A DNA stretch of 64,000 nucleotides from NCBI GenBank assembly GCA_021773835.1, contig JAJFJQ010000020.1, positions 1 to 64,000 of the forward strand, given 5' to 3'. The first letter of the stretch is position 1; each line of letters begins with the position of its first letter. A program made the translations under genes and the position numbers. This document shows, one piece after another, positions 44,386 through 62,085 of the stretch. This stretch comes from Gammaproteobacteria bacterium. Its GTDB lineage: Bacteria; Pseudomonadota; Gammaproteobacteria; Ga0077536. The notes below the pieces were generated by a model. It saw nothing but the letters and a program-made list of their open reading frames with translations. It searched no databases and had not been told where the DNA came from.

Positions 44386-45537
44386 TCAGCTTAGTAGCTG
44401 TCGCGCAATTATCAGCTTTTGAACCTCAGAAGCTCCTTCGTAGATACGCAGTGCGCGGATCTCGCGATAAAGTTGTTCTACCTTGACCCCAGATTTGACG
44501 CCCATGCCGCCGAACAGTTGTACAGCTTTGTCGATCACCGATTGCGCGGCCTCAGTTGCATAAAGTTTTGCCATCGCAGCTTCACGCGTGATCCGATCGG
44601 CGGCGCAGTCTTTGGTCCATGCCGCGCGATAGATCAACAGGGCACTTGCATCGATGTCGAGCGCCATTTCCGCAAGTCGCTCTTGGGTAATGTCGAGATC
44701 CGCCAAGGTGCCTCCGAACATCGCGCGCGACTGCGAATAAGCAACGGCCTCATCGAGCGCGCGGCGAGCAAAACCGAGTGCGGCGGCGCCGACGGTCGAG
44801 CGAAAGATATCTAAAGTTGCCATCGCCACTTTAAAACCAGATCCGGGATCACCAATGAGGCTACTTGTGGGTAGGCGGCAATTTTTAAAAACCAGCGTTG
44901 CCAGCGGATGTGGCGCGATGACTTCAATGCGCTCTGCGATCTCGAGGCCGGGCGTATCCGCATCGACAAGCAAGGCTGAGATCCCACGCGCACCAGGTGC
45001 TTCATCAGTACGTGCGAACACGACGTAGAAATCTGCAATGCCACCGTTCGAGATCCACGTTTTCGTACCGTTTATCACAAATTCGTCACCGTCTCTGGTG
45101 GCCGTTGTGGTCATCGCGGCGACATCGGAGCCGGCGTCAGGCTCGGACAATGCAAACGCGGCAATCTTTTTCCCGGAGCGTACCGCCGATAGATACGATC
45201 GTTGCGCTTCATTGCCAAATAACGAGATGGCACCTGAGCCTAAGCCCTGCATCGCAAAGGCAAAATCGGCGAGACCATCATGTCGCGCCAGCGTTTCCCG
45301 GATCAGGCACAGTGCGCGCACATCGAGACGTGCATCCGTGTCAGCGTCGGCGGCAAGCGCCGCATATTCGAGCCACCCGTTGTTGGCAAGGCTTTGGACC
45401 AGCTCCCGGCACAGGGCGTCGACATCGCTATGGTCAAGGCTACATAACGCTGTCGATGCCCAAGTGTCGAGATCGCGTGCCAACACCTGATGATGGTCAT
45501 CAAAGAACGGCCACGCGAGAAAGGATTGGTCTGCCAT
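44386..45537 (-). CDS. Acyl-CoA dehydrogenase
   Basis: 383 residues from the ATG at 45537, preceded by GAGGTTAGCG; the frame upstream to 45609 covers the hydratase end. [19 protein letters not shown] and [16 protein letters not shown] are the two FAD/substrate-loop signatures, and the catalytic Glu is in [14 protein letters not shown] near the C-terminus. It would introduce an alpha-beta double bond into an acyl-CoA, with electrons going to ETF. Last gene of a four-gene operon (SDR, MarR, hydratase, this one), so its substrate is probably a ring-derived CoA ester. Confidence 0.92.
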
Positions 45538-45556
45538 TTCGCTAACCTCGCTGCTG

Positions 45557-46366
45557 CTAGTCGCCTTCGAATACCGGGTTCTCTTTCGCCACGAAGGCGT
45601 GGTAGGCACGGTGAAAATCCTGCGTTTGCATGCAGATCGCTTGCGCCTGTGCCTCCGCTTCGATCGCTTGATCGATCGACATATTCCATTCTTGATTCAT
45701 CATGTTCTTGGTCATCCCGTTGGCAAATGTTGGGCCGCTGGCGAGACGTTTGGCCATCGTCTGTGCCTCCTCAACAACGGTTTGTGGTGCGCACAGACGG
45801 TTGAAAAAGCCCCAACGTTCGCCCTCTGAGGCACTCATCGCGCGCCCCGTGAGCAGGATCTCTGCTGCGCGACCTTGCCCAATTATTCGCGGCAGTATGG
45901 CGCAGGCACCCATGTCGCAGCCGGCGAGTCCGACCCGGGCAAAGAGAAAAGCTGTCTTGCAATTTTCCGTACCAAAACGCATGTCGGCGCCCATCGCCAA
46001 GATGGCACCGGCGCCGGCGCAGATCCCGTCCACCGCAGCGATGATCGGCTGCGGGCACGCGCGCATGGCTTTGATCACATCACCGGTCATGCGGGTAAAT
46101 TCCATTAACCCTTTCATGTCCTTTTCGGTCAGTGGACCGATGATGTCGTGGACGTCGCCACCCGATGAAAAGTTGCCTTCAGCCCCGGTTATCACGACGG
46201 CATGGATGTCTTCGGCGTAGTTTAAATCGCGAAAGGTGTCGCGCAATTCGGCGTAAGACTGGAACGTCAGAGGGTTCTTTCGTTCTGGTCTGTTTAGGGT
46301 GATCGTCGCCACGGTGTCATCGCAATGCCACTGAAAATGCTTCGGTTTTAAGTCGGACAGCTTCAT
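45557..46366 (-). CDS. Enoyl-CoA hydratase/isomerase family protein
   Basis: 269 residues of the crotonase fold. [20 protein letters not shown] opens it, [10 protein letters not shown] is the first oxyanion loop, and [23 protein letters not shown] is the second. [29 protein letters not shown] contains the active-site loop, with Asp rather than a Glu at the usual place, so hydration, isomerisation or ring cleavage are all open. TTGGAGAC precedes the ATG. It follows the MarR gene by 82 bases. Confidence 0.9.
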
Positions 46367-46448
46367 TTAATTGTCTCCAAATATTTGAGTGGCGGTTTTT
46401 TGAAAGGGCCGTCGGCGTGGACGCATCGCGGATTTGTTAATGAGATAT

Positions 46449-46943
46449 TCAGCGCTTTGACGTGATGGAGTCCTTGGCCTTGCTTAGGCCGGCAATCAGG
46501 GTTTTGATCTCACTGGCGGTCAAGTCCGAGAACAGATCCGTGATCCATTGTTCATGCACCTCGGCCATCTGCCGGAATGCATTGATGCCATGATCAGTAA
46601 GCTCAATGTATTGCACCCGTCGATCGGTTGGCGACGCGGCGCGTCGAACATAACCATCACGCTCAAGTCGATCAACGACCCCCGTTACGTTGCCGTTCGA
46701 TACCATGAGATTTTCCGACAATTGCGACATGGTTAATGCATCGCCGGCATGCTCCAGTTCGGATAAGACATCGAATTGTGGCAAAGTGATGTCGAAAGTC
46801 GTGCGCAGGCGCGTACGCACGGTCTGTTCGACGAGACCTTCGCAAGCTAATAAGCGCAACCATAATCTGAGCGATTGTTTCGGTCGTCCTTTGTGCGTTG
46901 AGCGCGCGACCTTGTCCGATGATTCGGACGTACCGGCGCTCAC
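46449..46943 (-). CDS. MarR-family transcriptional regulator (GTG start)
   Basis: 164 residues starting with GTG at 46943, overlapping the SDR stop by four bases (GTGA), with GGAG eight bases upstream; the longer frame to 47006 would run into the SDR gene. The winged helix reads TLPQFDVLSELEHAGDALTMSQLSENL, then MVSNGNVTGVVDRLERDGYV with the wing RRAASPTDRRVQYIELT. As in other MarR members of CoA-dependent aromatic pathways it probably senses a CoA ester and releases the operator at 47772-47810. Located inside the operon it would regulate. Confidence 0.9.
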   Translation of the reverse strand: MSAGTSESSDKVARSTHKGRPKQSLRLWLRLLACEGLVEQTVRTRLRTTFDITLPQFDVLSELEHAGDALTMSQLSENLMVSNGNVTGVVDRLERDGYVRRAASPTDRRVQYIELTDHGINAFRQMAEVHEQWITDLFSDLTASEIKTLIAGLSKAKDSITSKR

Positions 46944-47725
46944 ATTACTTCTCCACCCGCAACTGCGATCGATTGGCCATTGATGCTGTCCGAGCCGGCG
47001 GAACATAACCAGGCGACAGTTGATGCGATTTCGTTGGGTTGAATGAATCGGCGCTGCGGGTTTACGGCCTTCAAGGACTTCTTAGCTTCTTCGCGGCTGC
47101 GTCCGGTGGTGTCCATGATGTTTTGAATTGAGTCTTCGAGTAGATCGGTCTCCGTGAACCCTGGGCATACGGCATTGACGGTGATGCCTTCGCGGGCAAC
47201 TTCCAGTGCCACCGCACGCGTGAGGCCAATCGCGCCATGTTTTGCTGCGCAATACGCGGCCACATAGGCATAGCCGATCAGGCCTGCGGTGCTAACCACG
47301 TTGACGATACGGCCCCAGCGTGCGGCGCGCATTGCTTCGATCACTTGCTGCTGGCAGAGAAACATCCCGGTTAGATTCACCGCGATCATGTGATCCCATA
47401 ACGCGTGGCTCGTTTTAGCGAACGGCGCACTGTGGGCCGCGCCGGCGTTATTGATTAAAACTTCGACGGCACCGAAATTCTCGCTCGCTGCCTCAAACGC
47501 GGTACCAACCGATACCTGATCGGTAACGTCGGCGACTTGGTAAGCGCTACCTTCAAGGGTGTCGCAAGCGGCCGCGAGCGCGGCCTGATCACGCCCCATG
47601 ATGGTGACTTTTGCACCCATGGCGTGCAGTCGATGTGCGATTGCGGCGCCGATGCCACGAGCGCCACCGGTCACCACGGCATGCTTGCCGCTAACGAGTG
47701 ATGCCTTCCCGGCGAATTCATTCAT
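46940..47725 (-). CDS. Short-chain dehydrogenase/reductase (3-hydroxyacyl/hydroxybutyrate type)
   Basis: 261 residues. TGGARGIG is the cofactor loop; NNAG in EVLINNAGAAHS; Ser in VNVVSTAGLIG; Tyr/Lys in YVAAYCAAKHGAI. GFTETDLLEDSIQNIMDTTG in the substrate loop resembles 3-hydroxybutyrate and 3-hydroxyacyl-CoA dehydrogenases. It would do the NAD-linked oxidation step after the hydratase in a beta-oxidation-like sequence. First gene of the operon behind the 39-bp inverted repeat, divergent from the RidA gene. Confidence 0.9.
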   Translation of the reverse strand: MNEFAGKASLVSGKHAVVTGGARGIGAAIAHRLHAMGAKVTIMGRDQAALAAACDTLEGSAYQVADVTDQVSVGTAFEAASENFGAVEVLINNAGAAHSAPFAKTSHALWDHMIAVNLTGMFLCQQQVIEAMRAARWGRIVNVVSTAGLIGYAYVAAYCAAKHGAIGLTRAVALEVAREGITVNAVCPGFTETDLLEDSIQNIMDTTGRSREEAKKSLKAVNPQRRFIQPNEIASTVAWLCSAGSDSINGQSIAVAGGEVM

Positions 47726-47771
47726 AGTTATGGTCTCTTAAGCACTTGCCGAAATGCGGTCATATTAGATG

Positions 47772-47810
47772 AATTATTTTAATCTTGAAACAATTCAAGT
47801 TAAAATAATT
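47772..47810. promoter_or_regulatory. 39-bp inverted repeat, MarR operator candidate
   Basis: Outer arms AATTATTTTAA / TTAAAATAATT (11 bp, perfect) enclose inner arms CTTGAA / TTCAAG (6 bp, perfect) around ACAA, with one extra T (47783) on the left. It is 46 bases from the SDR start and 77 bases from the RidA start, the normal place for a MarR-type regulator to control both directions. Confidence 0.7.
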
Positions 47811-47887
47811 TTTCCCAAATGAGAATGTGAAAATCGCCCACTATGGGCTGACCAACAAGACCAATCAAAGACGAAGGAACATTGACC

Positions 47888-48316
47888 ATGGCCGAATCAC
47901 GCAACCCAGGGAACGCGCACCTACAGTTTTTACAGCCGCCCGGCTGGCCGGAACCGAAGGGCTACGCGAACGGAATCGCGGCGACAGGTCGTCAAGTATT
48001 CGTCGGCGGTACGATCGGTTGGAACGAGCAGTTAGTATTCGAGAGTGACGAGCTTGCCGAACAAGCTCACCAGGCGTTGAAGAACATCGTCGCGGTGTTG
48101 GCCGAAGCGGGCGCGGGTCCCGAGCATGTGGTACGTATGACCTGGTATGTCACCGATAAGCACGAGTATCTAGCCAATGCGAAGGCGCTCGGCGCGGCCT
48201 ATCGTGCGGTCATGGGTTATCATTTTCCGGCGATGGCCTTGGTGCAAGTCGTGGCCTTGGTTGAGGATCGTGCAAAAGTTGAAATTGAGACAACGGCTGT
48301 TATCCCGGTTCTGTGA
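47888..48316 (+). CDS. RidA family protein (enamine/imine deaminase type)
   Basis: 142 residues from the ATG at 47888, nine bases after GAAGGA (a TTG two codons earlier is too close to that site). FLQPPGWPEPKGYANGIAATGRQVFVGGTIGW opens the fold; QAHQALKNIVAVLAEAGAGPEHVVRMTWYVTD is the central helix and strand; the end reads ALVQVVALVEDRAKVEIETTAVIPV, with no Arg at the RidA active-site place but VVALVEDRAKVE instead. RidA-like proteins occur in the 2-aminobenzoyl-CoA gene clusters I recall, where removal of an amino group from an enamine is needed. Pairs with the thioesterase, 10 bases apart. Confidence 0.88.
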   Translation: MAESRNPGNAHLQFLQPPGWPEPKGYANGIAATGRQVFVGGTIGWNEQLVFESDELAEQAHQALKNIVAVLAEAGAGPEHVVRMTWYVTDKHEYLANAKALGAAYRAVMGYHFPAMALVQVVALVEDRAKVEIETTAVIPVL

Positions 48317-48326
48317 GACCTAAACG

Positions 48327-48794
48327 ATGATCATGTATTGGCGCGAATTGACGGTAAATTGGGGTGAATCCGATCCCTTTGGTTTGGTCTATTACCCCCG
48401 CATGCTGTCATGGTTTAACGACACCGAGCATGAGTTGTTTCGTCGCATCGGCTATCCCATTGACGTCATGATCAGCAATGACCGGACGACCTTTGTGATG
48501 GGTGAAGTGCATTTCCGCTTTATCGGACCCGCAGCATACGGGGAATCGGTGCTAAGCATCATCAAGCTACAAAAGATGGGAGCCAGCACGCTGCATTGGA
48601 AAACGCGATGTGTGAATGCGGTTACCGGTGCAGCAGTTTGCGAGGGCTTGGGTACCCGGGTTTATGCGCGGATCAACGAGGATGGCACGCTTAAATCCGC
48701 GACTATTCCACCGGAAATGCGCGATGCCTTGAGCACTCTGGACGATTTTCAGAAGCTCAAACCATCTAATTTTGAGGAAGCTTTCAACCTGTAA
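48327..48794 (+). CDS. Acyl-CoA thioesterase (4-hydroxybenzoyl-CoA thioesterase/YbgC type)
   Basis: 155 residues of the hotdog fold. The catalytic Asp is in GESDPFGLVYYPRMLSWFND, a good match to the W-G-x-x-D-x-x-G-I-V-x-Y-P-R motif of the family. Cytoplasmic; it would release CoA from an aromatic or short acyl thioester, preventing CoA from being trapped. Starts with ATG ATC ATG; either ATG (48327 or 48333) is possible. Downstream of the RidA gene in a two-gene unit divergent from the SDR/MarR operon. Confidence 0.88.
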   Translation: MIMYWRELTVNWGESDPFGLVYYPRMLSWFNDTEHELFRRIGYPIDVMISNDRTTFVMGEVHFRFIGPAAYGESVLSIIKLQKMGASTLHWKTRCVNAVTGAAVCEGLGTRVYARINEDGTLKSATIPPEMRDALSTLDDFQKLKPSNFEEAFNL

Positions 48795-49018
48795 AGTTTC
48801 CGGTGTCAATCCGCCGACACAGCTCCCTCTTTGACAATTCGTTAAGCGCCAGAAACTTGCCGTTCGGTACGTCAATGTCGCTTTTTCAATAAATTGCGGA
48901 ATTTGCCGCTACATCCTGAATGGACATCTACCGAATTGTGATGCGATCCACCTGTATTGAGCGGCCAATACCCTGTGGGAGCGGCCGGGTTCCGCGTAGT
49001 TGATGAGGCGTCACTAGC

Positions 49019-50551
49019 ATGACTGCGCTTCAAAACAGTGAGAACGTCGACCGGCTGGTTGTCGACAACGCGGTGATCGGCATTGCGTTGAGTGGCCGCG
49101 ACGGAAAGTGGATCCGCGTTAATCGGGCCCTAGGCGCAATGTTGGGCTACACCGAAGCGGAGTTACTGGAACTTAACTTCACGAAAATTACTCAGGCCGA
49201 TGATGTTGTAATCGATCAAGAATCTCTACAAAAATTACGCGCGGGAGAAGTAACTAGTTTCACGCACGAGAAACGCTACATACACAAGGACGGGCACTTA
49301 TTTTGGGTGCGCGTACACGTCGCCGGTGTCTATGATAGCGACGGCGTCCTAACCCACCATTCGACACAGGTAGTCGACATTTCTCGGACCTATGAGCTGG
49401 AGCAAGAGGCTCGTTTGTACAGCGAACGCTTACATAACGTGATCGAGGGGACCGACGCCGGAACGTGGGAGTGGGATTGTGTCACCGGTGATATCGTCAT
49501 TAACGATCGATGGGCCGAGATCGTCGGCTATACGCGCGACGAACTCGAACCGACCACGGTGGAAACTTGGAAGCGTCTGATCCATCCAGATGATCTTATC
49601 CACGCAATGGAATTGCTTGACCGGCATTTTGACGGCGACCTACACGCCTACGACCTAGAAGTCCGTATGCAGCATAAAGAGGGTCACTGGGTTTGGGTGC
49701 ACAATCGCGGAAAGCTATTCGAGCGATCAGATCAGGGGCGACCCTTACGAGTTGCCGGTACACATATCGATATCACGCAACGGAAACGCGATGAAGCCGC
49801 GTTGCTCGCGGCTAACAACGCGCTAGTTAAATCGAATCGCGATCTCGAACAATTTGCCTACGTCGCTTCACATGATCTGCAAGAACCATTGCGTATGGTC
49901 GCGAGTTTTACGAAATTACTCTCAAGAAATTACGCTGATGAACTTGATGACAAGGCACGCGAGTATATTAATTTCGCGGCGGATGGCGCACAGCGCATGC
50001 AGCAGCTGATCAAAGATCTATTGTCCTATTCGCGCATTGGACAAGGTTACGTGGATGACGAAGCGGTTGATCTAAACTTGGTTCAAGAACGCGTGGTCCG
50101 ATCACTGCAGCTATCGAATGGCAACGCTGCAGCAGAGATCTATTGTGGGCCGCTTCCCGTAGTTCATGGAGATCCAGGTCAGCTACAACAATTGCTGCAT
50201 AATCTCGTTGCCAATGCGATCAAGTATCGTGGCGACAAACCCATTGAGGTAACAATTGGCACCGATCAGCGAAATGCAGAAATGGTATTTTTCGTGCGCG
50301 ACAATGGGATCGGTATTGACCCTGAAAATTTCGAACGGATTTTTGAAATTTTTCAACGCCTGCACGCGCGCAGCGAATATGCTGGGACAGGGATCGGCCT
50401 GGCGATTTGTAAACGTATTGTCGAGCGACACGGGGGACGTATCTGGGTAGAGTCGGCGCTCGGAGAGGGCGCGACATTTTTCTTCACCTTACATCCCGAT
50501 CGATTCGGCACCCTAGAATCGACATCTAGTGACGATCGCTCGGCGGCTTAG
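49019..50551 (+). CDS. PAS-domain sensor histidine kinase, cytoplasmic
   Basis: 510 residues and no membrane span. Two PAS/PAC modules (about residues 8-125 and 138-256, the second a PAS_3 type with GYTRDELEP...HPDD and W-V-H-N-R), a dimerisation box with phospho-acceptor His285 (YVASHDLQEPLRM), and a HATPase domain (N-box HNLVANAIKYRG, DNGIGID, GTGIGLAI). The ASHDLQEPLR box is typical of phytochrome-like and Bacteriophytochrome-type orphan kinases. No response regulator is adjacent. GAGGCG precedes the ATG. It separates two parts of the catabolic block and overlaps the convergent IorB-like stop by four bases. Confidence 0.9.
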   Translation: MTALQNSENVDRLVVDNAVIGIALSGRDGKWIRVNRALGAMLGYTEAELLELNFTKITQADDVVIDQESLQKLRAGEVTSFTHEKRYIHKDGHLFWVRVHVAGVYDSDGVLTHHSTQVVDISRTYELEQEARLYSERLHNVIEGTDAGTWEWDCVTGDIVINDRWAEIVGYTRDELEPTTVETWKRLIHPDDLIHAMELLDRHFDGDLHAYDLEVRMQHKEGHWVWVHNRGKLFERSDQGRPLRVAGTHIDITQRKRDEAALLAANNALVKSNRDLEQFAYVASHDLQEPLRMVASFTKLLSRNYADELDDKAREYINFAADGAQRMQQLIKDLLSYSRIGQGYVDDEAVDLNLVQERVVRSLQLSNGNAAAEIYCGPLPVVHGDPGQLQQLLHNLVANAIKYRGDKPIEVTIGTDQRNAEMVFFVRDNGIGIDPENFERIFEIFQRLHARSEYAGTGIGLAICKRIVERHGGRIWVESALGEGATFFFTLHPDRFGTLESTSSDDRSAA

Positions 50552-52062
50552 GCGACCTGCCTCAAACTCGCTTCCAGCTTAGCCCCATCCTCATCGGCTA
50601 GCGCCGCAATCCTTTGATTGGCAAGCTGCGCGGCGGTTTGCGGGGTGATGGGATGCTCATCTAGTGCCTCCATGATACGAGTAAAATTACCAACGCCACG
50701 TGCGTGGGTATCGCCATATCCCTTAATCAGGTTTTGACAGCGAGCGACCTCAAGCGCAACGTCGTAGTGTTGTTCCGCGAGCGCTTCAATCCGCGACAAC
50801 CAACTATTTATGCGATTCTGCTCGATCATGAAACGGTACGTCGAGCGTCGAAAACGTTGTAGTGAAGATATTCCGTAGAGCAATAGGAAACCGCTAACTT
50901 TCGAGGTGCGGATTTTACGTTCGCGCAATATAAACCGCTGCAGAAAGGTTTGTGCCCACGGCGTCGCGAGTAGCCAGCTACCGAGACGATGTGGCAAGGT
51001 GTCCGCAACCTCTTCAACCCGGGGGTGCATGTACTCCGTGAGGTAGACCAGTTCGTTCCCGCCCGCTTGGACGTCGGTGCGGCAACGGTCGAAGCGTTCG
51101 CGTCGGATCTTAATATCGGCGACGCGAATCGTATCCTCGTAGCTCATCCACAAGGCAAGATGTCGCGCTACCGCGTCGGTTAAACGTGCCCCTTGGTCAT
51201 TTTCCGGATCCACTCTTTGAATCGACATTAGGCGATCGAGATATCGGTTCGCGTATGCCGGATCTTGGTAATCGAGGAGCCGACGTACGCCAGCCAATGC
51301 AGTTTGCCGAGCTGGAGTGCACAGTTCGTGGTCAACGCGTTTGAGGAGTTCGGCGACATCGGGATCAATTACGCTTGGCGTTGGCGCCGCAGCGGAAGGT
51401 GTTTCGAGCGTTGGCGTCTCACCGCGTGCCAATCTAGCGGCCGCGGAAAACGCGGCCAAGTTGCTGGCTACGGATTTACCCGTTCCAGTAATAGCCGACT
51501 CGAATTGTTCAGTTGAAAATGGCAGGGCCTTACTACCGGCAAGCGCGCCAAATAATGTCGCACTGATCACCGTATTGTGTGTCTCCGCAAGTGTCTGCAT
51601 ATCAAAGCAAACGATCGATTTCGCCGCCGCTTCGATCGCTTTTTTGATATCCGATGAGCGAATGCGGCCGTCTCCCATGGCGCTTTTTTCGGCTATGGCA
51701 TACGCGCGGTGGTCGGAGGCGATCAAGCAGGTGCGGTCCGGGGTGACGATCCCGCGTTGTACGGCGCGCCCCGCTTCGACCAACTCGGCGGCAATCACCA
51801 CATCGACGTCGCCTGGAACAGGCATCAGGGCTAGGACCGGGGCCTGCGCAGCCGCACCCTCGGGAAATAATTCTAGGTAGTAAATCGTCGCGCCGGTGCG
51901 TTGCGCTACGCCAGGAACGGAGGTGACCTGTACGTAGTAGCCGGCCGTCTCCCCCATCGCTAGGATCCAATCGGCGAGCACGCCACCGCCTTGGCCGCCC
52001 ATAGCGGCGATCGCAATTGTGATGCGTTGTCGAGCTGTTGCTGACACGACAGTGTTCAACAC
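50548..52062 (-). CDS. Indolepyruvate oxidoreductase subunit beta family protein (with C-terminal DUF6537-like part)
   Basis: 504 residues. Residues about 10-200 are the gamma/beta type domain of 2-oxoacid:ferredoxin oxidoreductases (IAAMGGQGGGVLADWILAMG; SVPGVAQRTGATIYYLEL). The remaining 300 residues are a helical extension seen in the long version of this family. The start is GTG at 52062 (or TTG at 52059) and overlaps the alpha subunit gene by up to seven bases, so the two are coupled. With the alpha subunit it would oxidise an aryl-2-oxoacid to an aryl-acetyl-CoA. Confidence 0.88.
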   Translation of the reverse strand: MLNTVVSATARQRITIAIAAMGGQGGGVLADWILAMGETAGYYVQVTSVPGVAQRTGATIYYLELFPEGAAAQAPVLALMPVPGDVDVVIAAELVEAGRAVQRGIVTPDRTCLIASDHRAYAIAEKSAMGDGRIRSSDIKKAIEAAAKSIVCFDMQTLAETHNTVISATLFGALAGSKALPFSTEQFESAITGTGKSVASNLAAFSAAARLARGETPTLETPSAAAPTPSVIDPDVAELLKRVDHELCTPARQTALAGVRRLLDYQDPAYANRYLDRLMSIQRVDPENDQGARLTDAVARHLALWMSYEDTIRVADIKIRRERFDRCRTDVQAGGNELVYLTEYMHPRVEEVADTLPHRLGSWLLATPWAQTFLQRFILRERKIRTSKVSGFLLLYGISSLQRFRRSTYRFMIEQNRINSWLSRIEALAEQHYDVALEVARCQNLIKGYGDTHARGVGNFTRIMEALDEHPITPQTAAQLANQRIAALADEDGAKLEASLRQVA

Positions 52063-54218
52063 GCGTAGCGCGCGAGCTGGCGCGCGCGCCGGTCTTGCAA
52101 ATAACCAATGACTTTAGCGCGTGCACGATCGATATATTTATCCCAGCGTGATGGGTTGTAGATCACTTCGGCCTTGTAGAACGACGGGCACAGCACTGCC
52201 GCGTGAGCGATCTCGCCGCAGACACCACAGCCAACACACGAATTGTCGACGTGTGCGATAGGATCGGTGCGTAATGGATCGGGGTTATCAGCAATCGTCA
52301 GTGACGGACACCCCGACAGGCGGATGCAGGAATGATCACCGGTACAGGTTTCGGGGTCGACGCCGAAGCGGTCACGTACGACCCGCTGACCCGCTTGCTG
52401 TTTACTTTTAAAGATTGGTTTTTCGCGGCGCTGTTTGTTTAGCATGCATTCCGAGCGTGCGACGATCACCTTCGGGCCTTTGGCTGTGGACGTCATCGCA
52501 TTGCGTAAGGTTCGTGTCATCTTCGCCAGATCGTAGGTGTTAACGGTTTTGACCCATTTAACGCCAACGCCTTTTACGGCCTTCGCAATCAAGTTATTGG
52601 TGCTGCGAAGTGGATTGTCGGCGAGGGAAGACAGAATATCTTGGCCGCCGGTGGCCGCCGCATAGCCGTTATCGACAATGACGACGACGTTGTCGTTCTC
52701 ATTAAACACCGCATTTCCGATCCCGCTGGTAAGACCGTTATGCCAGAATCCGCCGTCGCCCATTACGCTGACCATGCGCTGATTCGATTTGACATTAAAC
52801 GCGGCGCCGCCGGCGGCGCCGAGTCCGTAGCCCATGGTGGTGTTGCCAATATTGAACGGCGGCAATATCGAAAAGAGATGACAGCCAATGTCGCATGACA
52901 CGTGAAAATCGCCGATATCCCGTTGAATAAGTTTCATTGCGGTAAATACTGGTCGTTCCGGACAACCGGTACAAAAACCGGGCGGACGCGCAGGAACGGA
53001 TTGAGCTAGGTCTTGGGCAACTTTTTGATTTGTTGCGCGCGCCGCATTGGCGGCATCCGACGACTTTGGCAGTAGGTGTGGCGCCTCGGACTCGAAAAAT
53101 CCTTGGATCCCTTTTTGCAGCACCTCACCGGTATATTCGCCTGCCTTCGGCAGCATACTTTTGCCGTGGATGCGGGTGTTTATATCGGCATGTCGCAATA
53201 TCGTATTTAATGCCTGCTCAATGTAGTCGGGTTGGCCTTCTTCGATTAAGAGGACGGCTTTTTTACCGGTACAGAACTGGACCAACTCGTCGTCGATCAG
53301 TGGATAGGTCACGTTCATAACATAGATTGGCAGCCGGCTATGGCCGAAGCTGTCGGCGAGACCTAGGATCTCTAATGCACGGTTGGTGGTATTAAACAAT
53401 CCACCTTGAAGAATGATCCCAATGTCATCTTTGTCCCTGTCGCCTTCGAATACTTCGTTTAGGCGATGCGATTTGATGTATTCGACCGCCGCCGGCCAGC
53501 GCTGATCAACCTTCTCATGTTCATGCGCAAAGCTTGCCGGTGGCAAGACTATGCGACTGGTATCGCGCACCGGTTGTTCCATTGCGTCGCGTAGCGTTGT
53601 CGCCGGTCGTCGATTTGCTTTGCTCTTAAAGCGGCCGTGTAGATGACAAGCACGTACTCTGAGTTCTAACATCACCGGCGTTTGACTCGCCTCGGACATC
53701 GCAAAGCCATGTTCAACCATGGCGACAATACTTTCGAGGTTTGGTCGCGGATCTAGCAACCACATCTGCGATTTCATGGCGAAGGCGTGCGTGCGCTCCT
53801 GCATGATCGACGATCCCTCACCGTAGTCTTCACCCACAATGACCATCGCGCCACCGGTAACCCCACCGGATGCAAGGTTTGCAAGCGCGTCTGACGCCAC
53901 ATTGGTACCTACCGTCGATTTCCAAGCCACTGCGCCGCGCAACGGATAATTCACCGATGCAGCCAACATTGCGGCGGCTGCGGCTTCCGATGCGCTCGAT
54001 TCGAAATGCACTCCAAGTTCGTCGAGGATCCCTTGTTGTTGGGCGTCGCCGAGGACATCCATCAAATGCGAAATCGGCGCGCCTTGATAACCGCCAACAT
54101 AGGCAACACCGGATTGGAGCAAAGCCTTGGTCACCGCGAGGATGCCTTCGCCACGGAATTCGTCGCCCAGGCTCAAGCGGAGTTTTTTGACTTCTTCAGT
54201 AAACGAACGTTCGGCCAT
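52056..54218 (-). CDS. iorA: Indolepyruvate:ferredoxin oxidoreductase subunit alpha
   Basis: 720 residues. Residues about 1-200 form the pyruvate:ferredoxin oxidoreductase N-terminal domain (GVAYVGGYQGAPISHLMDVL), then the central domain, then a thiamine diphosphate site (MGDGGFWHNGLTSGIGNAVF...VIVDNGYAAATGG). The C-terminus carries iron-sulfur ligands: CTGDHSCIRLSGC and CVGCGVCGEIAH...CP. It converts an aryl pyruvate plus CoA to aryl acetyl-CoA, CO2 and reduced ferredoxin in the cytoplasm; indolepyruvate is the family's best-known substrate. GAGACATAAGTC precedes the ATG. The cyclase-family gene is 21 bases upstream. Confidence 0.88.
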   Translation of the reverse strand: MAERSFTEEVKKLRLSLGDEFRGEGILAVTKALLQSGVAYVGGYQGAPISHLMDVLGDAQQQGILDELGVHFESSASEAAAAAMLAASVNYPLRGAVAWKSTVGTNVASDALANLASGGVTGGAMVIVGEDYGEGSSIMQERTHAFAMKSQMWLLDPRPNLESIVAMVEHGFAMSEASQTPVMLELRVRACHLHGRFKSKANRRPATTLRDAMEQPVRDTSRIVLPPASFAHEHEKVDQRWPAAVEYIKSHRLNEVFEGDRDKDDIGIILQGGLFNTTNRALEILGLADSFGHSRLPIYVMNVTYPLIDDELVQFCTGKKAVLLIEEGQPDYIEQALNTILRHADINTRIHGKSMLPKAGEYTGEVLQKGIQGFFESEAPHLLPKSSDAANAARATNQKVAQDLAQSVPARPPGFCTGCPERPVFTAMKLIQRDIGDFHVSCDIGCHLFSILPPFNIGNTTMGYGLGAAGGAAFNVKSNQRMVSVMGDGGFWHNGLTSGIGNAVFNENDNVVVIVDNGYAAATGGQDILSSLADNPLRSTNNLIAKAVKGVGVKWVKTVNTYDLAKMTRTLRNAMTSTAKGPKVIVARSECMLNKQRREKPIFKSKQQAGQRVVRDRFGVDPETCTGDHSCIRLSGCPSLTIADNPDPLRTDPIAHVDNSCVGCGVCGEIAHAAVLCPSFYKAEVIYNPSRWDKYIDRARAKVIGYLQDRRARQLARYAC

Positions 54219-54239
54219 GACTTATGTCTCTATTGCGGA

Positions 54240-55022
54240 TCAGGCTGGGACTAACGCGAAGGCGCGACACGGACTACCCGATCCATTCTCAATCTTTAAC
54301 GGCGCCGCAATCACGACCGCACCAGTGGCGGGTAGTTGATCAAGATTACATAGTGCTGCCAGGCCGTACTTATTCGCACCGTGCATGAGGTTATGACAGG
54401 GAAATTGTGGGTCTTGTATGAAGCTCTGTCCGGCATCAGTGCCAACGGTCTCGACCCCCGCACCTTTCACATTCCGCTCGTCGGCCAGGAAACGGATCGC
54501 ATCGGGCTCCCAACCCGGCGTGTGCCCGCCGTCTTCTCGATTGTTGAGAAATTCATCTGAATCATATTTCTTGGACCAGTCGGTTCGAAACAGCACCCAC
54601 GCACCTGCCGGGATGGTGCCGTTTTTACTTTCCCATTGCATAAGGTAATCGCGGCTTACTAGAAAATCTGGATTGGCTTGGCAGTCAGCGACCGCATCGA
54701 TCACGCAGGCAGCGCCAATAAATGCCTCATTCGGAACCGTATCGGTGGCATTTTTTTCATGGTCTTTGCCCGAGACCCAATGGATCGGAACATCAAAATG
54801 GGTGCCGGTGTGCTCGCCGCAGGAAAAATTATTCCAATACCAACCCGGTCCGCGGTCGTCGTACTTTGAGATTTCTTCGATCTTAAACGGCCATGATTGA
54901 CCGAACTCCGGCGGGATCGAGAGCAGCGGGGTATGCTCGTGCAGCGGCTGCGTCAGATCGACGATACGGATGGCTCCGGCGCTGATACCGGTGACTAAAT
55001 TTATTAGCGTTTGGGCAGACAT
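54240..55022 (-). CDS. Cyclase family protein (kynurenine formamidase/isatin hydrolase type)
   Basis: 260 residues, no signal peptide. The metal-site motif EHTGTHFDVPIHW is intact, and IRIVDLTQPLHEHTPLL opens the fold; AGVETVGTDAGQ and HNLMHGANKYGLAAL are further conserved parts. In this superfamily kynurenine formamidase and isatin hydrolase both yield 2-aminophenyl compounds on the way to anthranilate, which would fit the neighbouring indolepyruvate oxidoreductase and the aminobenzoyl-CoA-type monooxygenase; the exact substrate is inference. AGAGGTTCC precedes the ATG. Confidence 0.85.
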   Translation of the reverse strand: MSAQTLINLVTGISAGAIRIVDLTQPLHEHTPLLSIPPEFGQSWPFKIEEISKYDDRGPGWYWNNFSCGEHTGTHFDVPIHWVSGKDHEKNATDTVPNEAFIGAACVIDAVADCQANPDFLVSRDYLMQWESKNGTIPAGAWVLFRTDWSKKYDSDEFLNNREDGGHTPGWEPDAIRFLADERNVKGAGVETVGTDAGQSFIQDPQFPCHNLMHGANKYGLAALCNLDQLPATGAVVIAAPLKIENGSGSPCRAFALVPA

Positions 55023-55110
55023 CGGGAACCTCTTTCATTGTTATCGATTGATCGGAAGTATAAGGCGTAGCACCGGATGGTTCACCCGGCCATATAATTA
55101 GAGCTGTCGT

Positions 55111-57429
55111 TTAATCGTCACTGATCTTATGGCTTGGCGGCTTGAGTGCAATTTGCATATCGCGCTGTTCTTCCGCTTCGCGCTCACCAATTAGATAGGC
55201 TTGGAATCGGCCGGCCATGTACGGGTTTGGCCATTGCTGCCCTTGATAACCGTAGCGCGCGGCGGCGTCGAGCATGAATTGCGGGTTGGTCAAGTGCGGG
55301 CGCGCTAGCGCTACCAAATCCGCGCGCCCAGACAGGATGATGGTGTTGACCTGATCGGCATTCGTGATGTTGCCGGCGACAATGACCGGAATGTCGACGC
55401 GATGCTTGACTTTGTCGGCGAAGGGCACCTGAAACATGCGGCCATAGACTGGCTTCTCATCGCTTACGGTTTGTCCAGTGGAGACATTGATCACATCGAC
55501 CCCAGCCTCTTTCAGGAGTTGGCAGGCGCGGATCAGTTCATCCTCACCCAGACCGCCGATCGACCAATCAGACGCCGACAGTCGAACCGACATGGGCTTG
55601 TCCGCGGGGAAGACTGCGCGCATCGCCGTGAAGACCTCAAGGGGGTAACGCATCCGGGCGTCGATATCGCCGCCGTATTCGTCGTCGCGTAAATTCGTCA
55701 GCGGCGAGATAAAGCTTGCGATCAGATACCCATGTGCCGCGTGCAGCTCGACCATGTCGAAGCCAGCCTGCTCGGCATATTCAACCGAAGCCACAAATTG
55801 CGCCTTGATCTCGTCCATGCGTGCTCGATCGAGTGCAATCGGGGTTGCGCTTTCTACCCGATAGGGTACCGCCGACGCCGCGAAAATTGGCCAGTTACCG
55901 TCATCGAGTGGTAGGTCCATTCCGTCCCAGGCCAGCCGGGTTGAACCCTTACGCCCGGCATGGCCGATTTGCATACACATTTTCGCGGCGGCGTTGGCGT
56001 GAACAAAATCGACAATACGGCGCCACTGGTCGCGCTGCGCTGCATTCCATAATCCTGTGCAACCCGGCGTAATGCGTGCATCCGGCGACGGGCAGGTCAT
56101 TTCTGTATAGATCAAACCGGCGCCGCCGATACCACGGCTACCATAGTGGACCAAGTGCCAATCGTTCGGTAGGCCATCAATAGCGGAGTACTGCGCCATC
56201 GGCGACATCACCACTCGATTATCCAGCTGCATATTGCGCAGACGGAACGGTGCGAACATCGGTGGGGTACCGTGCGGAAAATCGTAGCCGGAGGCGTGTT
56301 GAGCAGCGGTAAAACCTTGTTCAACCTTGGCGACGAATTCTGCATCACGCAGGCGTAGATTCTCATAAGTGATCTGCTTGGAGCGAGACATCACCTGAAA
56401 CGCGAACTTTTCGGGTTCGACATCCCAATGTTCATCCATCGTTTCAAACCACGCCAGCGACACGTCAGCGGCGTGTTGCGTGATCTCTACGTCGGTCCGA
56501 CGGTCGACATCAAATGCGGCAAGTGCGGTGGGTAGATCGTCGTGGGCTTTGAGTGATTCATACAAGGCAATCGAACTTTCCATTGCGAGCTTGGTTCCGG
56601 ATCCGATGGAGTAATGCGCGGTATGCTGGGAATCGCCTATTAAGACAATATTGTCTTTGACCCAGGTTTTGTTTTTCACTTCCGGAAATTGACGCCACAG
56701 TGAACGATTAATGATCAACTCATGGCCGTCGAGTTCCTCTACAAAGAGTTGCTGAAGCTTCTCGGCATATTCGGTTTCCTGCATATTGCCAAAGCCGAAC
56801 CCTTCCCACGTACTCGGCTGCATTTCGCACACCCAGGTACTCATCCCCCGTTCGTACTGGTAGGCATGCATGACGATGATGCCGTGTTCGGTCTCGCGAA
56901 AAAAATATTTAAATGCATCGAGTTCCCTGGTTGATCCCAGCCAGCAAAAGTAATTTCGTCGGACCACGACTTCCGTACCGAAACTGTCCGAATATTTATC
57001 CCGGACCAGGCTCGCTATACCATCGGCAGCAATGATTAGATCGCTATCCGCGAATTCTTGTTCGTCGCTTACCTCATGTTCGAAGTGCAGTGCTACCCCA
57101 AGTGATGACGCGCGTTCGTGTAATAGTTGTAAGAGCTTTAACCGCGAACATCCACAGAAGCCGTTGCCAGCGCAGCGCAAAACCTGTCCCTTGTAATGGA
57201 TGTCGACGTCGTCCCAATAGGCGAAGGAGCGACGGATCGATTCGTAGGAAGGATTGTCATATTGATCGAGAAATCCGAGCGTTTGGTCAGAAAAAACCAC
57301 ACCGAAGCCGAAGGTATCATCCGGCCGATTCCGCTCGAACACGTCGATTTGCCAATCGGGCCATTGTTTCTTCGCCAGGATGGCGAAATACAATCCGCCG
57401 GGTCCGCCGCCAACTACAGATATTTTCAT
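55111..57429 (-). CDS. Fused FAD monooxygenase - old yellow enzyme (2-aminobenzoyl-CoA monooxygenase/reductase or salicylyl-CoA 5-hydroxylase type)
   Basis: 772 residues with two enzymes in one chain. Residues 1-385 are a class A flavin monooxygenase (VVGGGPGGLYFAILAKKQWP; GFGVVFSDQTLGFL; IVLIGDSQHTAHYSIGSGTKLA). Residues about 388-760 are an FMN old yellow enzyme (FAPFRLRNMQLDNRVVMSPM; ELHAAHGYLIASFISPLTN). This exact fusion is known from 2-aminobenzoyl-CoA monooxygenase/reductase of anthranilate-degrading Azoarcus and relatives, which hydroxylates and then reduces the ring of the CoA ester; databases often call it bifunctional salicylyl-CoA 5-hydroxylase. The start has no strong ribosome site. 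Confidence 0.9.
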   Translation of the reverse strand: MKISVVGGGPGGLYFAILAKKQWPDWQIDVFERNRPDDTFGFGVVFSDQTLGFLDQYDNPSYESIRRSFAYWDDVDIHYKGQVLRCAGNGFCGCSRLKLLQLLHERASSLGVALHFEHEVSDEQEFADSDLIIAADGIASLVRDKYSDSFGTEVVVRRNYFCWLGSTRELDAFKYFFRETEHGIIVMHAYQYERGMSTWVCEMQPSTWEGFGFGNMQETEYAEKLQQLFVEELDGHELIINRSLWRQFPEVKNKTWVKDNIVLIGDSQHTAHYSIGSGTKLAMESSIALYESLKAHDDLPTALAAFDVDRRTDVEITQHAADVSLAWFETMDEHWDVEPEKFAFQVMSRSKQITYENLRLRDAEFVAKVEQGFTAAQHASGYDFPHGTPPMFAPFRLRNMQLDNRVVMSPMAQYSAIDGLPNDWHLVHYGSRGIGGAGLIYTEMTCPSPDARITPGCTGLWNAAQRDQWRRIVDFVHANAAAKMCMQIGHAGRKGSTRLAWDGMDLPLDDGNWPIFAASAVPYRVESATPIALDRARMDEIKAQFVASVEYAEQAGFDMVELHAAHGYLIASFISPLTNLRDDEYGGDIDARMRYPLEVFTAMRAVFPADKPMSVRLSASDWSIGGLGEDELIRACQLLKEAGVDVINVSTGQTVSDEKPVYGRMFQVPFADKVKHRVDIPVIVAGNITNADQVNTIILSGRADLVALARPHLTNPQFMLDAAARYGYQGQQWPNPYMAGRFQAYLIGEREAEEQRDMQIALKPPSHKISDD

Positions 57430-57505
57430 TGCTATGTGCCGCCCGTCTAGGTGAAATTCTGAATCGTCAAATGGCGATCATCGAAAAATACTTTAAGTAC
57501 GAAAT

Positions 57506-57520
57506 ATTTTAGCTTAAAAT
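57506..57520. promoter_or_regulatory. Inverted repeat in divergent promoter, possible MarR site
   Basis: ATTTTA-GCT-TAAAAT, AT-rich dyad 77 bases from the start of the fused monooxygenase. It shares TATTTTA and TTAAAAT with the larger repeat at 47772-47810 but is shorter and lacks the inner CTTGAA/TTCAAG arms. Confidence 0.4.
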
Positions 57521-57651
57521 TTATCCGGCGTCAGCATTTGAGACATTTATGCTACTAAGTGGTGATCGCGCCTCCTCGGGCCTGGCCGGACGGTGGCCAT
57601 CGCGCTGCGATCGGTTTTGCGCTTAAATTGACGGACGGTCCCTAATCGCCG

Positions 57652-59106
57652 ATGTGGAAGCCAGCACAACGTATTCGTTTTCAAGCACAACCCGGCCGAT
57701 GGCCAACCCGGGAGGAGGCCACGCGAGCGCGTCTGTTCCAAGGTATAGCACTCGGGCCGACCTGGCTTGAGGAACGCACTTGGGTGCCGGCGATGGTGCC
57801 ATGGCGAGCCACGGATACCGGTTTTGTAACAGATGATGTCCTCGACTGGTATCGTCGTTTTGCCGAAGGCCGACCGGGCGCCATCGTAGTCGAAGCGACC
57901 GGCGTGCGTGATGTCGCCTCGGGGCCGCTACTACGAATTGGCGATGACCGGTTTCTTGATGGCCTCAAACGCCTGGTCGACACGGTGCAAAAGGCGAGTG
58001 GCGGGCGTACGCGGCTATTCATTCAGCTAATCGACTTCCTCGCCATTCGGCGGCGTCCGCAGCGTGAGAAGTATTTTCGTCGTTTTCTCGCAATCACACC
58101 AAAACACCGCGAATGGCTCGGCATGCCGGACGCTCCAGAAGAGAGCGTGCGCGCTAAATTAATGGACCTACCGGACGACGACCTAGCAGGGGTTTTAACG
58201 CGGCGCGAATTGGACGACTTGAACATCGGCTTTCGTGAGCGCGTTACCGATGTACACGCGCAACATATTGCTGAGCTGCCGCAGACGTTGCCGGCGATCT
58301 TTGCGGACGCTGCCGGCCGGGCCGAATTTGCCGGATTCGACGGCGTTGAGTTGCACTATGCACACGCCTATACGATGGCGTCGTTTCTGTCGGCCTTGAA
58401 TACTCGATCCGATGGTTACGGCGGTTCACCTGCACAGCGAGTTCGACTGCCGCTGGCAGTTTATCAATCCGTACGATCAGCAGTGGGACAGAAATTTGCT
58501 GTCGGCTGCCGTTTCCTGACCGAGGACTGCATCTCCGGCGGCAGCAACGTCGATGATGCGGTCTATTTCGCTTTACAATTTGCGCGTGCCGGAATGGATT
58601 TTCTCTCGTTGTCTCGCGGTGGAAAATTCGAAGATGCTAAGCAACCTCGAGTCGGTGAAGCGGCATACCCTTATACTGGACCCAGCGGCTACGAATGCAT
58701 GCCGCAGTATTTATCCGATGAGCTCGGACCGTTTGGTCGCAATGTTGAACCCGTTGCACGGATCCGAGCGGCGGTGCGCAACGGGGGTTTTGCGACACCG
58801 GTGGTGGTGGCGGGCGGGATCCATGGGTTTCAGCAGGCAGAGCGGATCCTTGATGACGGAAAGGCTGACATTATCGGCTTCGCACGCCAGGCGCTGGCCG
58901 ATCCAGATTGGTTCGCTAAGGTGAGGGAAGGCCGGGGCGACGCCGTCCGGGTTTGCGAATATACGAATTACTGCGAAGGGCTCGATCAGAAACATAAGCA
59001 GGTAACCTGCCAATTGTGGGACCGCGAGGCGCGCGATGAACGTGGTGTCGCGCTATCGAAGGATGGTCGCCGCCGTTTGGTGGCGCCAGCCTGGGATCGA
59101 CGCTAA
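57652..59106 (+). CDS. NADH:flavin oxidoreductase, old yellow enzyme family
   Basis: 484 residues. GFDGVELHYAHAYTMASFLSA and RSDGYGGSPAQRVRLPLAV are the barrel signatures, and VVVAGGIHGFQQAERILDDGKADIIGFARQALADPDW is the phosphate-binding part. Near the end CEYTNYC, followed by eleven residues and Cys, resembles the iron-sulfur motif of 2,4-dienoyl-CoA reductase-type members but has only three of the four Cys, so cluster binding is doubtful. No second FAD domain. It would reduce an activated C=C bond. Divergent from the fused monooxygenase and probably part of the same pathway. No clear ribosome site at the chosen ATG. Confidence 0.85.
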   Translation: MWKPAQRIRFQAQPGRWPTREEATRARLFQGIALGPTWLEERTWVPAMVPWRATDTGFVTDDVLDWYRRFAEGRPGAIVVEATGVRDVASGPLLRIGDDRFLDGLKRLVDTVQKASGGRTRLFIQLIDFLAIRRRPQREKYFRRFLAITPKHREWLGMPDAPEESVRAKLMDLPDDDLAGVLTRRELDDLNIGFRERVTDVHAQHIAELPQTLPAIFADAAGRAEFAGFDGVELHYAHAYTMASFLSALNTRSDGYGGSPAQRVRLPLAVYQSVRSAVGQKFAVGCRFLTEDCISGGSNVDDAVYFALQFARAGMDFLSLSRGGKFEDAKQPRVGEAAYPYTGPSGYECMPQYLSDELGPFGRNVEPVARIRAAVRNGGFATPVVVAGGIHGFQQAERILDDGKADIIGFARQALADPDWFAKVREGRGDAVRVCEYTNYCEGLDQKHKQVTCQLWDREARDERGVALSKDGRRRLVAPAWDRR

Positions 59107-59650: not shown

Positions 59651-60103
59651 ATGAATATCGTCTGCTATCTTTTCGTTGCCTTGATGATCCCGTCTCTCAC
59701 TTACGGGGCCGATATCCATAAATGGCGAGACGCCGATGGAAAAACGCATTTTGGTGATAAGCCGCCAGCCGATACCGAAACCGAACAAGTCCTGGTCCGG
59801 CCGAATGTCTACACGAGTCCTAGCATCGAAGGGCTGTCCGAAATATTTAGCCGCGAGACGGGACGCCATGAAGAGAAAGTAGTGATGTATAGCACGACAT
59901 GGTGTGGTTATTGTAAGAAAGCGCGGCGCTACTTCGGCGCAAACAAGATCCGCTATAAAGAGTATGACGTCGAAAATAGTGCGAAGGGCAAACGCGACTA
60001 TAAAAAGCTCGGTGCAAAAGGCATTCCGGTGATTCTCGTCGGGAAAAAGCGGCTTAATGGATTTTCTGAAGCCGCGTTTGAGCGGATCTACGCGCCCAAA
60101 TAG
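59651..60103 (+). CDS. DUF4124 - glutaredoxin fusion, periplasmic
   Basis: 150 residues. Signal peptide at about 1-18 (CYLFVALMIPSLTYG). Residues about 20-40 are the DUF4124 motif (DIHKWRDADGKTHFGDKPP). Residues about 75-148 are a glutaredoxin domain with the active-site pair CGYC (YSTTWCGYCKKARRYF) and GIPVILVGKKRLNGFSEAAF containing the cis-Pro. It would exchange disulfides on envelope proteins, since the signal places it outside the cytoplasm where glutathione is scarce. The fusion of these two domains is known in gamma- and betaproteobacteria. Confidence 0.87.
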   Translation: MNIVCYLFVALMIPSLTYGADIHKWRDADGKTHFGDKPPADTETEQVLVRPNVYTSPSIEGLSEIFSRETGRHEEKVVMYSTTWCGYCKKARRYFGANKIRYKEYDVENSAKGKRDYKKLGAKGIPVILVGKKRLNGFSEAAFERIYAPK

Positions 60104-60136
60104 ACCCACATAGATTTCATTTCGAATATCTTTAGC

Positions 60137-61264: not shown

Positions 61265-61402
61265 GTCTAGTGTCAATTTATCCTTTTAAAGTAGAACAAT
61301 CAGTCGCCAGATCCTGATTTAGAAAGCGCCACGCCTAGATCGGTAACCCGATGCAATCAACTGCAACGAGTGAATTCCCGACATTTGTTGGCAGGGCGAC
61401 GC

Positions 61403-61433
61403 GACCCTCCGACTAGCAAGGGGTCGGAGGGTC
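61403..61433. terminator. Strong hairpin between convergent genes
   Basis: GACCCTCCGAC / GTCGGAGGGTC, an 11-bp perfect stem with a nine-base loop, 12 bases after the stop of the SnoaL-like gene on the minus strand. No T-tract follows, so it may act as a bidirectional transcript-end hairpin. Confidence 0.5.
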
Positions 61434-61445
61434 ATGCGGCCTAGT

Positions 61446-61880: not shown

Positions 61881-62085
61881 CGTGAGCTCTCCTCCAAGTT
61901 GGGTTTTTCTAATTCGTTGTCACAATCTAAGTGGCGAAACTAACATAATACAGGCGCTTGTGTGCCGGCTCGAACAACATGAGTTGTGCGGCGCTTGGTC
62001 GCTCACCATGACCGTCAAGCGACCACAATAATACTTGGACAGCACAGGACAAGCCGGTCCGCAGCGTGCCCGGTTACGCACGTGC

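Follow-up and report, generated by a model that had tools for sequence, protein, structure and literature searches.

How does a gene cluster predicted to degrade 2-aminobenzoyl-coenzyme A (2-aminobenzoyl-CoA) obtain its CoA ester when it has no aryl-CoA ligase? This question is raised by positions 44386-59106 of the DNA studied here, a window consisting of the first 64,000 bases of a 178,856-base contig (C12) from the 6.1-Mb genome of a Gammaproteobacteria bacterium. The cluster codes for an isatin hydrolase, the two subunits of an indolepyruvate:ferredoxin oxidoreductase (IOR), a fused 2-aminobenzoyl-CoA monooxygenase/reductase (ACMR), a second old yellow enzyme (OYE), and a beta-oxidation set with RidA, a thioesterase and MarR (Table 1). 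All of these genes had been named in a first-pass annotation, and their positions and family matches were confirmed; its remark that no aryl-CoA ligase lies in the cluster also holds for the whole span. Our reading, to which we give a probability of about 70%, is that the span forms a single regulon for the catabolism of isatin or a precursor of isatin, in which the IOR would convert isatinate to 2-aminobenzoyl-CoA without a ligase. Gene identities, hydrolase residues, the recurrent linkage and the failure to detect a ligase orthologue were read from sequence, and from these we infer every substrate, the order of the late steps, the pairing of MarR with two palindromes and, above all, the reaction of the IOR.

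Isatin hydrolase and its oxidoreductase partner

On its kinship and catalytic residues, the cyclase-family protein of the cluster is an isatin hydrolase. Its four best matches in the PDB are all isatin hydrolases (5nmp, 5nna, 5nnb and 4j0n; E 2.2e-101 to 1.8e-77, nearly full length); after them comes an unnamed cyclase-family protein, at E 1.3e-26. It matches the isatin hydrolases of Labrenzia (Roseibium) aggregata and Ralstonia solanacearum over nearly their full length and has all of the catalytic residues. The metal ligands and proton-shuttle residues given for LaIHA are H69, H73, D75, H79, H207 and D193 (PMC6117287). By alignment they map to H71, H75, D77, H81, H210 and D196 of the window hydrolase, which are invariant in the 14 sequences aligned. 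Ala222 aligns with LaIHA Gln219, a position described as Ala in LaIHB and Glu in kynurenine formamidase, KynB (PMC6117287), and here the window enzyme is like the B form. Kynurenine formamidase was ruled out as the identity of this protein, as the arylformamidase model gave 36 bits against a cut-off of 223.

The alpha subunit of the adjoining IOR pair (50548-54218) has the thiamine pyrophosphate motif (GDG at residue 487, DNG at 516) and the Fe-S cysteines of a 2-oxoacid:ferredoxin oxidoreductase. Eleven cysteines are kept in 65/65 aligned rows and one more in 64/65, the window protein being counted twice in this alignment. No PDB sequence matched the alpha subunit at E 0.001.

It was found that the two enzymes travel together. 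In a phylum sample of 398 genomes (cut-offs E 1e-150 for IOR alpha, E 1e-60 for isatin hydrolase and E 1e-120 for ACMR), IOR alpha is present in 29, isatin hydrolase in 25 and ACMR in 71. IOR and hydrolase occur together in 23 genomes where 1.8 would be expected (Fisher p 1e-29 by genome), and ACMR is present in 23/23 of these; hydrolase without IOR was seen in two genomes (G587, G676) and IOR without hydrolase in six. Counted by genus, 14 genera have both, of 20 and 16 with the one and the other, giving p 1.5e-15, a value in which kinship between genera remains. A scan of genome contigs with the hydrolase alignment gave 557 relatives, from which the best 80 loci were kept. IOR genes lie in 50 of the best 80 loci and in 42/56 of those longer than 20 kb. 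In 13 of the best 80, IOR is joined by ACMR, or by at least two of crotonase, dehydrogenase, short-chain dehydrogenase (SDR) and RidA, with neither IadD nor a ligase; a ligase with such genes and no IOR was found in 3, and a ligase with IOR in 2.

Gene sets like that of the window are found in Robiginitomaculum (L131), a member of the Gammaproteobacteria (L190), G725 (L099) and G256 (L024), and since they recur in other genomes the combination is not due to chance. L190 has most of the window's genes in a single run (second OYE, RidA, dehydrogenase, crotonase, MarR, SDR and ACMR, the last as two open reading frames), followed by divergent hydrolase, IOR alpha and IOR beta; no thioesterase was seen. 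In L131 the order is RidA, thioesterase, dehydrogenase, crotonase, MarR and SDR, with divergent IOR alpha, IOR beta and hydrolase; this stretch has no second OYE or ACMR, and an ACMR lies elsewhere in its genome. L125 has ACMR, hydrolase, IOR alpha and IOR beta in the same order as the window, with identities of 87% for the hydrolase, 83% for IOR alpha and 80% for ACMR.

The first-pass annotation had suggested a longer route from indolepyruvate or an indole compound. With indolepyruvate as the start, the IOR would be a true ferredoxin oxidoreductase for indolepyruvate (arylpyruvate), and would form indoleacetyl-CoA from the indolepyruvate that tryptophan yields. The family names agree with this, and alpha and beta are of the general IOR kind. 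In the IOR tree, however (64 rows; sequences with fewer than 550 aligned residues were dropped), six rows form a clade of their own with 100% support; five come from hydrolase-less genomes and the sixth is a second copy. Of the phylum-sample rows outside this clade, 23/24 belong to genomes with isatin hydrolase, L055 being the exception, and the window IOR alpha falls in the clade that accompanies the hydrolase. The named rows were fetched via the hydrolase and therefore give no independent support, and a partial IOR match (G107:C3, 68%) from a hydrolase-less genome is absent from the tree. The co-occurrence far above expectation also speaks against indolepyruvate, as do the lack of an aminotransferase among the annotated genes of the span and the fact that indoleacetyl-CoA is not the expected substrate of any neighbour. 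Indolepyruvate as starting substrate is thus not borne out, and this route is considered quite unlikely; the 'indolepyruvate' in the name of the enzyme is inherited from its family.

Isatin is indole-2,3-dione, an oxidised form of indole; isatinate, or 2-aminophenylglyoxylate, belongs to the 2-oxo acids, which IOR-family enzymes convert to CoA esters. Phenylglyoxylate and other 2-oxoacid:acceptor oxidoreductases convert an arylglyoxylate to an aryl-CoA by oxidative decarboxylation. Since isatinate is a 2-oxo acid that fits both neighbours, hydrolase and ACMR, it is proposed as the substrate of the IOR rather than indolepyruvate. The hydrolase would open the ring of isatin to isatinate, and the IOR pair would act as a CoA-acylating isatinate:ferredoxin oxidoreductase, turning isatinate and CoA into 2-aminobenzoyl-CoA and CO2, so that a single step would bridge isatinate to the substrate on which ACMR is expected to act. 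Because CoA would be attached in the decarboxylation itself, no ATP-using ligase would be required. The earlier suggestion that CoA may enter through the oxidoreductase is thereby retained as an inference, with isatinate and not indolepyruvate as the source. The proposed step would be the same chemistry as that of phenylglyoxylate-type oxidoreductases, an analogy of reaction only. No statement of the step from isatinate to 2-aminobenzoyl-CoA was found in the open-access literature, subscription papers being largely outside this scope.

Origin of the CoA ester

The ACMR of the window is 48% identical to both ACMRs of Aromatoleum evansii KB740 and scores 1078.8 bits on NF006101 (cut-off 1078). 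The model is called 'salicylyl-CoA 5-hydroxylase', and its name would favour an oxygen analogue of the pathway, in which a lactone is opened to 2-hydroxyphenylglyoxylate, the IOR forms salicylyl-CoA and 5-hydroxylation follows; genes of Caballeronia SBC1, which suggest a gentisate-like fate after 5-hydroxylation, could be counted on the same side. But NF006101 gives the two A. evansii ACMRs 1386 and 1397 bits, above the window ACMR, and therefore the model name does not separate salicylyl-CoA from 2-aminobenzoyl-CoA enzymes. It may even mislabel enzymes of the anthranilate pathway. In addition, RidA, which acts on enamines, recurs in 18/22 compared loci, the hydrolase matches proven isatin hydrolases, and the span has no gene recognisable as a gentisate dioxygenase. 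Considering RidA, the kinship of the hydrolase and the uninformative model name, the salicylyl-CoA route is judged very unlikely. The first-pass proposal of 2-aminobenzoyl-CoA-type chemistry on an indole-derived substrate has support from the sequences.

The full name of NF006101, 'bifunctional salicylyl-CoA 5-hydroxylase/oxidoreductase', also falls on plasmid relatives (L208, L213). A second lower route was seen on the Caballeronia SBC1 plasmid (L248:1-10771), where IOR, thioesterase and ACMR are followed by a cupin-domain protein and then by fumarylacetoacetate hydrolase, carbon-nitrogen hydrolase and Asp/Glu racemase; G645 (L101:851-11270) is similar by eye. Such genes suggest a gentisate-like fate of hydroxylated 2-aminobenzoyl-CoA.

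Of the 62 rows in the ACMR tree, 39 lack a context label; the tree includes the A. evansii copies and no characterised salicylyl-CoA hydroxylase, and fragments such as L190 and L177 were dropped. The label of linkage to IOR or hydrolase needs three changes on this tree, with gains and losses alike possible. The window ACMR and the A. evansii ACMRs sit in different parts of the tree, and the window's side holds copies adjoining an anthranilate ligase (L023 and L116 clusters).

Could a ligase elsewhere in the genome supply the ester? It is possible to imagine that isatinate gives free anthranilate by another route, that benzoate-CoA ligase or another ligase makes 2-aminobenzoyl-CoA, and that the IOR serves something else. 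The best of 37 matches in the own genome to the anthranilate ligase of the L027 cluster is 35% identical, and the best ligase match is a benzoate-CoA ligase (TIGR02262 723 bits, 55% to the A. evansii benzoate-CoA ligase), which favours this alternative. That protein is, however, 34-36% identical to three anthranilate-CoA ligases that are themselves 57-92% identical to one another, and 35-36% to both of those from A. evansii. No orthologue of anthranilate-CoA ligase was found in the own genome, and the IOR appears to share an operon with isatin hydrolase and ACMR. A ligase search at E 1e-110 was positive in 26 of 36 genomes and negative in 5/23 of those with IOR and hydrolase (G000, G645, G412, G698, G725). 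A further test covered 20 named genomes, namely three chosen carriers as controls, all recovered (3/3), and 17 others; in 16 of these the IOR is close to the hydrolase, and the last, L126, is a short contig on which only RidA lies. The orthologue was found in 2/17 (L148, L194) and missing in 15/17, of which 4 had only 33-36% matches and 11 had no match even at E 1e-60. Among the ligase-less genomes, Haliea sp. E1-2-M8 (L130) and Shimwellia pseudoproteus DSM 3038 are not labelled as metagenome-assembled. Taken together, a detour through free anthranilate appears unlikely.

Several observations nevertheless weigh against a ligase-free route by way of the IOR. The ligase orthologue is also present in 18/23 genomes with IOR and hydrolase, and therefore the IOR is not generally a replacement for it. 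The absences are weak, since 14/17 of the named genomes are labelled as metagenome-assembled and may be incomplete, and the own benzoate-CoA ligase might accept anthranilate. In 19 of the best 80 hydrolase loci, including 7/56 long ones, no marker gene was found. A finding in Roseibium aggregatum also speaks against universal pairing. A near-identical copy of the verified isatin hydrolase A is there part of an iad operon, and no IOR is annotated at less than 14 kb from it, whereas the window hydrolase adjoins the IOR. The genome also has no recognised isatin-forming gene, iac-, iif- and iaa-type genes not having been searched for. Lastly, the iad locus of Variovorax, Achromobacter and Bradyrhizobium is described as degrading indoleacetic acid (IAA) through isatin and isatinic acid (PMC9613470, PMC12633357), and in Variovorax the region iadC-K2, which by gene order excludes iadAB, is reported to have restored anthranilic acid (PMC12633357). 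Going by that report, another way from isatinate therefore exists there, which also lends support to the free-anthranilate alternative.

Layout and control of the cluster

The cluster has three gene groups (Table 1). Group A on the minus strand (SDR, MarR, crotonase and acyl-CoA dehydrogenase; 44386-47725) faces away from group B on the plus strand (RidA and thioesterase; 47882-48794). Group C on the minus strand holds ACMR, isatin hydrolase, IOR alpha and IOR beta, and the second OYE is divergent from ACMR. RidA would hydrolyse the enamine, while SDR, second OYE, crotonase and acyl-CoA dehydrogenase would reduce, open and beta-oxidise the ring, the order of these steps and the role of the second OYE being guesses. 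The thioesterase could serve as a release valve.

Table 1. Features of the cluster at 44386-59106 and the matches on which they rest
Feature	Position	Strand	Basis and proposed role
Acyl-CoA dehydrogenase	44386..45609	-	PF00441 159 bits; proposed beta-oxidation of ring-opened CoA ester
Crotonase-family protein	45557..46366	-	NF006107 486 bits, cut-off 330; proposed hydratase or ring-opening hydrolase
MarR, proposed cluster regulator	46449..47006	-	PF01047; start uncertain, overlaps SDR gene
SDR	46940..47725	-	PF00106 193 bits; repeated neighbour of ACMR
Operator-like site, SDR/RidA divergent promoter	47775..47809	.	TATTTTAAGCTTAAAATA with 3 mismatches at 47775-47792; inverted repeats
RidA-family enamine/imine deaminase	47882..48316	+	PF01042 82 bits; proposed enamine hydrolysis of ACMR product
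4HBT_2 thioesterase	48327..48794	+	PF13279
PAS histidine kinase	49019-50551		Inside span, between groups B and C
IOR beta, IadB-like (POR domain + DUF6537)	50548..52062	-	PF01558, PF20169; NF006179 663 bits, cut-off 348
IOR alpha, IadA-like	52056..54218	-	TPP_enzyme_C domain; conserved cysteines
Isatin hydrolase (cyclase-family protein)	54240..55022	-	PF04199; PDB matches; catalytic residues
Fused ACMR	55111..57429	-	FAD_binding_3 residues 3-295, Oxidored_FMN 391-720
Operator-like site, ACMR/OYE divergent promoter	57503..57520	.	TATTTTAGCTTAAAAT at 57505-57520, shorter-spacer variant
Second OYE	57652..59106	+	PF00724 132 bits, residues 216-429 only; proposed enone reductase

The acyl-CoA dehydrogenase is 54-71% identical to counterparts in related clusters and 63% to that of the A. 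evansii cluster L244; its GTG start overlaps the upstream gene, and the true start may be further in. The crotonase homologue of A. evansii also matches NF006107. A MarR of the same family was found in 12/22 compared loci, 4HBT_2 proteins are present in the L131 and L134 clusters as well, and the second OYE has homologues (63-66%) in the L024, L025, L128 and L190 clusters, that is in 5/22 loci including the window. The histidine kinase was set aside and is not counted in the system, as no relative was found in 80 related loci at 40% identity over half its length.

If the three groups form one system, common control would be expected. A palindrome, TATTTTAAGCTTAAAATA, taken from related loci and not from the window, has its only match in the 64-kb window in the SDR/RidA gap (0.01 expected) and no match in two 20-kb stretches further along the contig. 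In the ACMR/OYE gap lies TATTTTAGCTTAAAAT, the only exact match in 64 kb to the variable-spacer pattern (0.00 expected), the spacer range having been picked after the site was seen. The half-site form of the motif, with two mismatches allowed, gave one match against 0.08 expected. A motif built on the two window gaps themselves (2 matches against 0.11 expected) was dropped as circular. Elsewhere, TATTTTAAGCTTAAAATA with 0-2 mismatches occupies the RidA/hydrolase gap of L126, L127, L130, L132, L133, L160 and L174, and it also stands ahead of the dehydrogenase in L132 and L160 and ahead of ACMR in L125. L130, L174 and L026 have copies with 2-4 mismatches next to ACMR, and the ACMR promoter of A. 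evansii (L244) has a 3-mismatch copy. With up to 4 mismatches, 13/28 sources have a match, those of L177 and L199 being unplaced and one in L026 lying outside the cluster.

Against a single regulon it must be said that the palindrome is missing from the other 15/28 sources (L022, L023, L024, L025, L099, L128, L131, L134, L140, L148, L175, L182, L190, L194 and L195), of which L131, L134, L190, L024 and L099 have like gene sets. The window site at 47775 is diverged, with its 3 mismatches, and in a mononucleotide shuffle an equally similar 16-base stretch was shared between the two window gaps in 30% of trials. As to the co-regulation on which the first-pass proposal depended, both divergent gaps of the window have a palindrome site, but one is diverged, and other relatives with the same genes lack it. 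The two sites are support for one regulon over the span, not proof of it. MarR would repress through the two palindromes.

Some observations concern a possible source of isatin. An upper pathway of Iad or StyA type in this genome was rejected, as no IadD orthologue was found in the genome (best match 33%) and a StyA-like monooxygenase query, run without a positive control, had no match. About 4 kb from the cluster, window positions 38742-40876 code for a GMC oxidoreductase and a Gluconate_2-dh3 protein, a candidate upstream step; L132, L160 and L195 have homologues of this pair (GMC 48-53%, partner 35-40%) in the neighbourhood of isatin hydrolase. In Halieaceae and relatives another candidate upstream step is a luciferase-like flavin monooxygenase with a MaoC-type protein near isatin hydrolase (L132:7733-9455, L160:7657-9468, L127:7646-9400, L126:163-1893), with the palindrome (1-4 mismatches) between the two. 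G645 has SDR, a flavin (FAD) monooxygenase and isatin hydrolase in a row (L102:7129-10605), possibly an indole-to-isatin module; we take this monooxygenase, by eye, to resemble styrene/indole monooxygenase. A homologue 81% identical to it adjoins isatin hydrolase in the metagenome-assembled Providencia genome L177. In L195 (8577-9791) an aminotransferase class V protein with a weak kynureninase C-terminal match adjoins isatin hydrolase and IOR. Elsewhere in the window, positions 31907-38435 hold a separate aromatic ring-cleavage group with two LigB-type dioxygenase proteins, a second cyclase-family protein, an Fe-dependent alcohol dehydrogenase, an alpha/beta hydrolase and a sodium:solute symporter. 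Positions 60001-64000 have a G+C of 0.48 as compared to about 0.55, and an open reading frame at 60137-61264 looks by eye like a multi-pass acyltransferase.

Comparison with known systems

The iad locus is of wider interest because some soil bacteria use it to break down auxin, a plant hormone, with anthranilic acid as the reported end product. A review of indole degradation lists the participation of isatin, and the genes handling it, among the open points (PMC6221969). In the accessible parts of the iad papers IadAB is assigned no reaction (PMC9613470, PMC12633357), and iadA and iadB serve as markers of iad-type loci (PMC9613470). On balance, the IadAB clade would be an isatinate:ferredoxin oxidoreductase that forms 2-aminobenzoyl-CoA directly. 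The window type would be a self-contained version of this that needs no ligase and occurs in Gamma- and Alphaproteobacteria, while Acidobacteriota have related pairs of IOR and hydrolase. If this is true, the breakdown of isatin, indole and auxin would exit as a CoA ester and not as free anthranilate wherever IadAB is present. Carbon could pass into ring reduction and beta-oxidation with no ATP spent on activation, free anthranilate could be a side product, and an enzyme pair now named after indolepyruvate would gain a function.

The window shares with the iad locus the IOR pair (iadA, iadB), the cyclase-family hydrolase (iadI, reported as annotated kynurenine formamidase) and MarR control, and the gene order of the Roseibium iad operon fits the correspondence of IOR and hydrolase to iadA, iadB and iadI. 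It differs in that the span shows no recognisable iadC-G gene (IadC, IadE and IadF were not searched for genome-wide), and in that IOR and hydrolase are joined to ACMR and a beta-oxidation set. In Variovorax, a compound C8H7NO3 is reported to accumulate strongly only in strains overexpressing iadC-K2 (PMC12633357; gene order PMC9613470), and C8H7NO3 has been identified as isatinic acid in another strain (PMC8383072). Its build-up without iadAB, as reported there, fits what would be expected if IadAB consumes isatinic acid, while overexpression alone could explain it.

The closest parallel for the lower part is the 2-aminobenzoate CoA pathway of A. evansii (L244), with which the window has ACMR, SDR, crotonase, acyl-CoA dehydrogenase, RidA and MarR in common. 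Both A. evansii clusters (L243, L244) contain a ligase, whose place is taken in the window by IOR and isatin hydrolase. In A. evansii the ACMR lies at C264:121505-123781, the ligase at 115726-117333 and an iad locus (L175) at 129247-150023; this suggests that the 2-aminobenzoate cluster stands a few kb from the iad locus, if C264 is the contig of L175 in the same orientation, as their equal length of 166,738 makes likely for the identity of the two. The anaerobic iaa pathway of indoleacetate in Aromatoleum is described as also ending in 2-aminobenzoyl-CoA, with iaa genes that are highly divergent from the iac and iad genes (PMC9613470).

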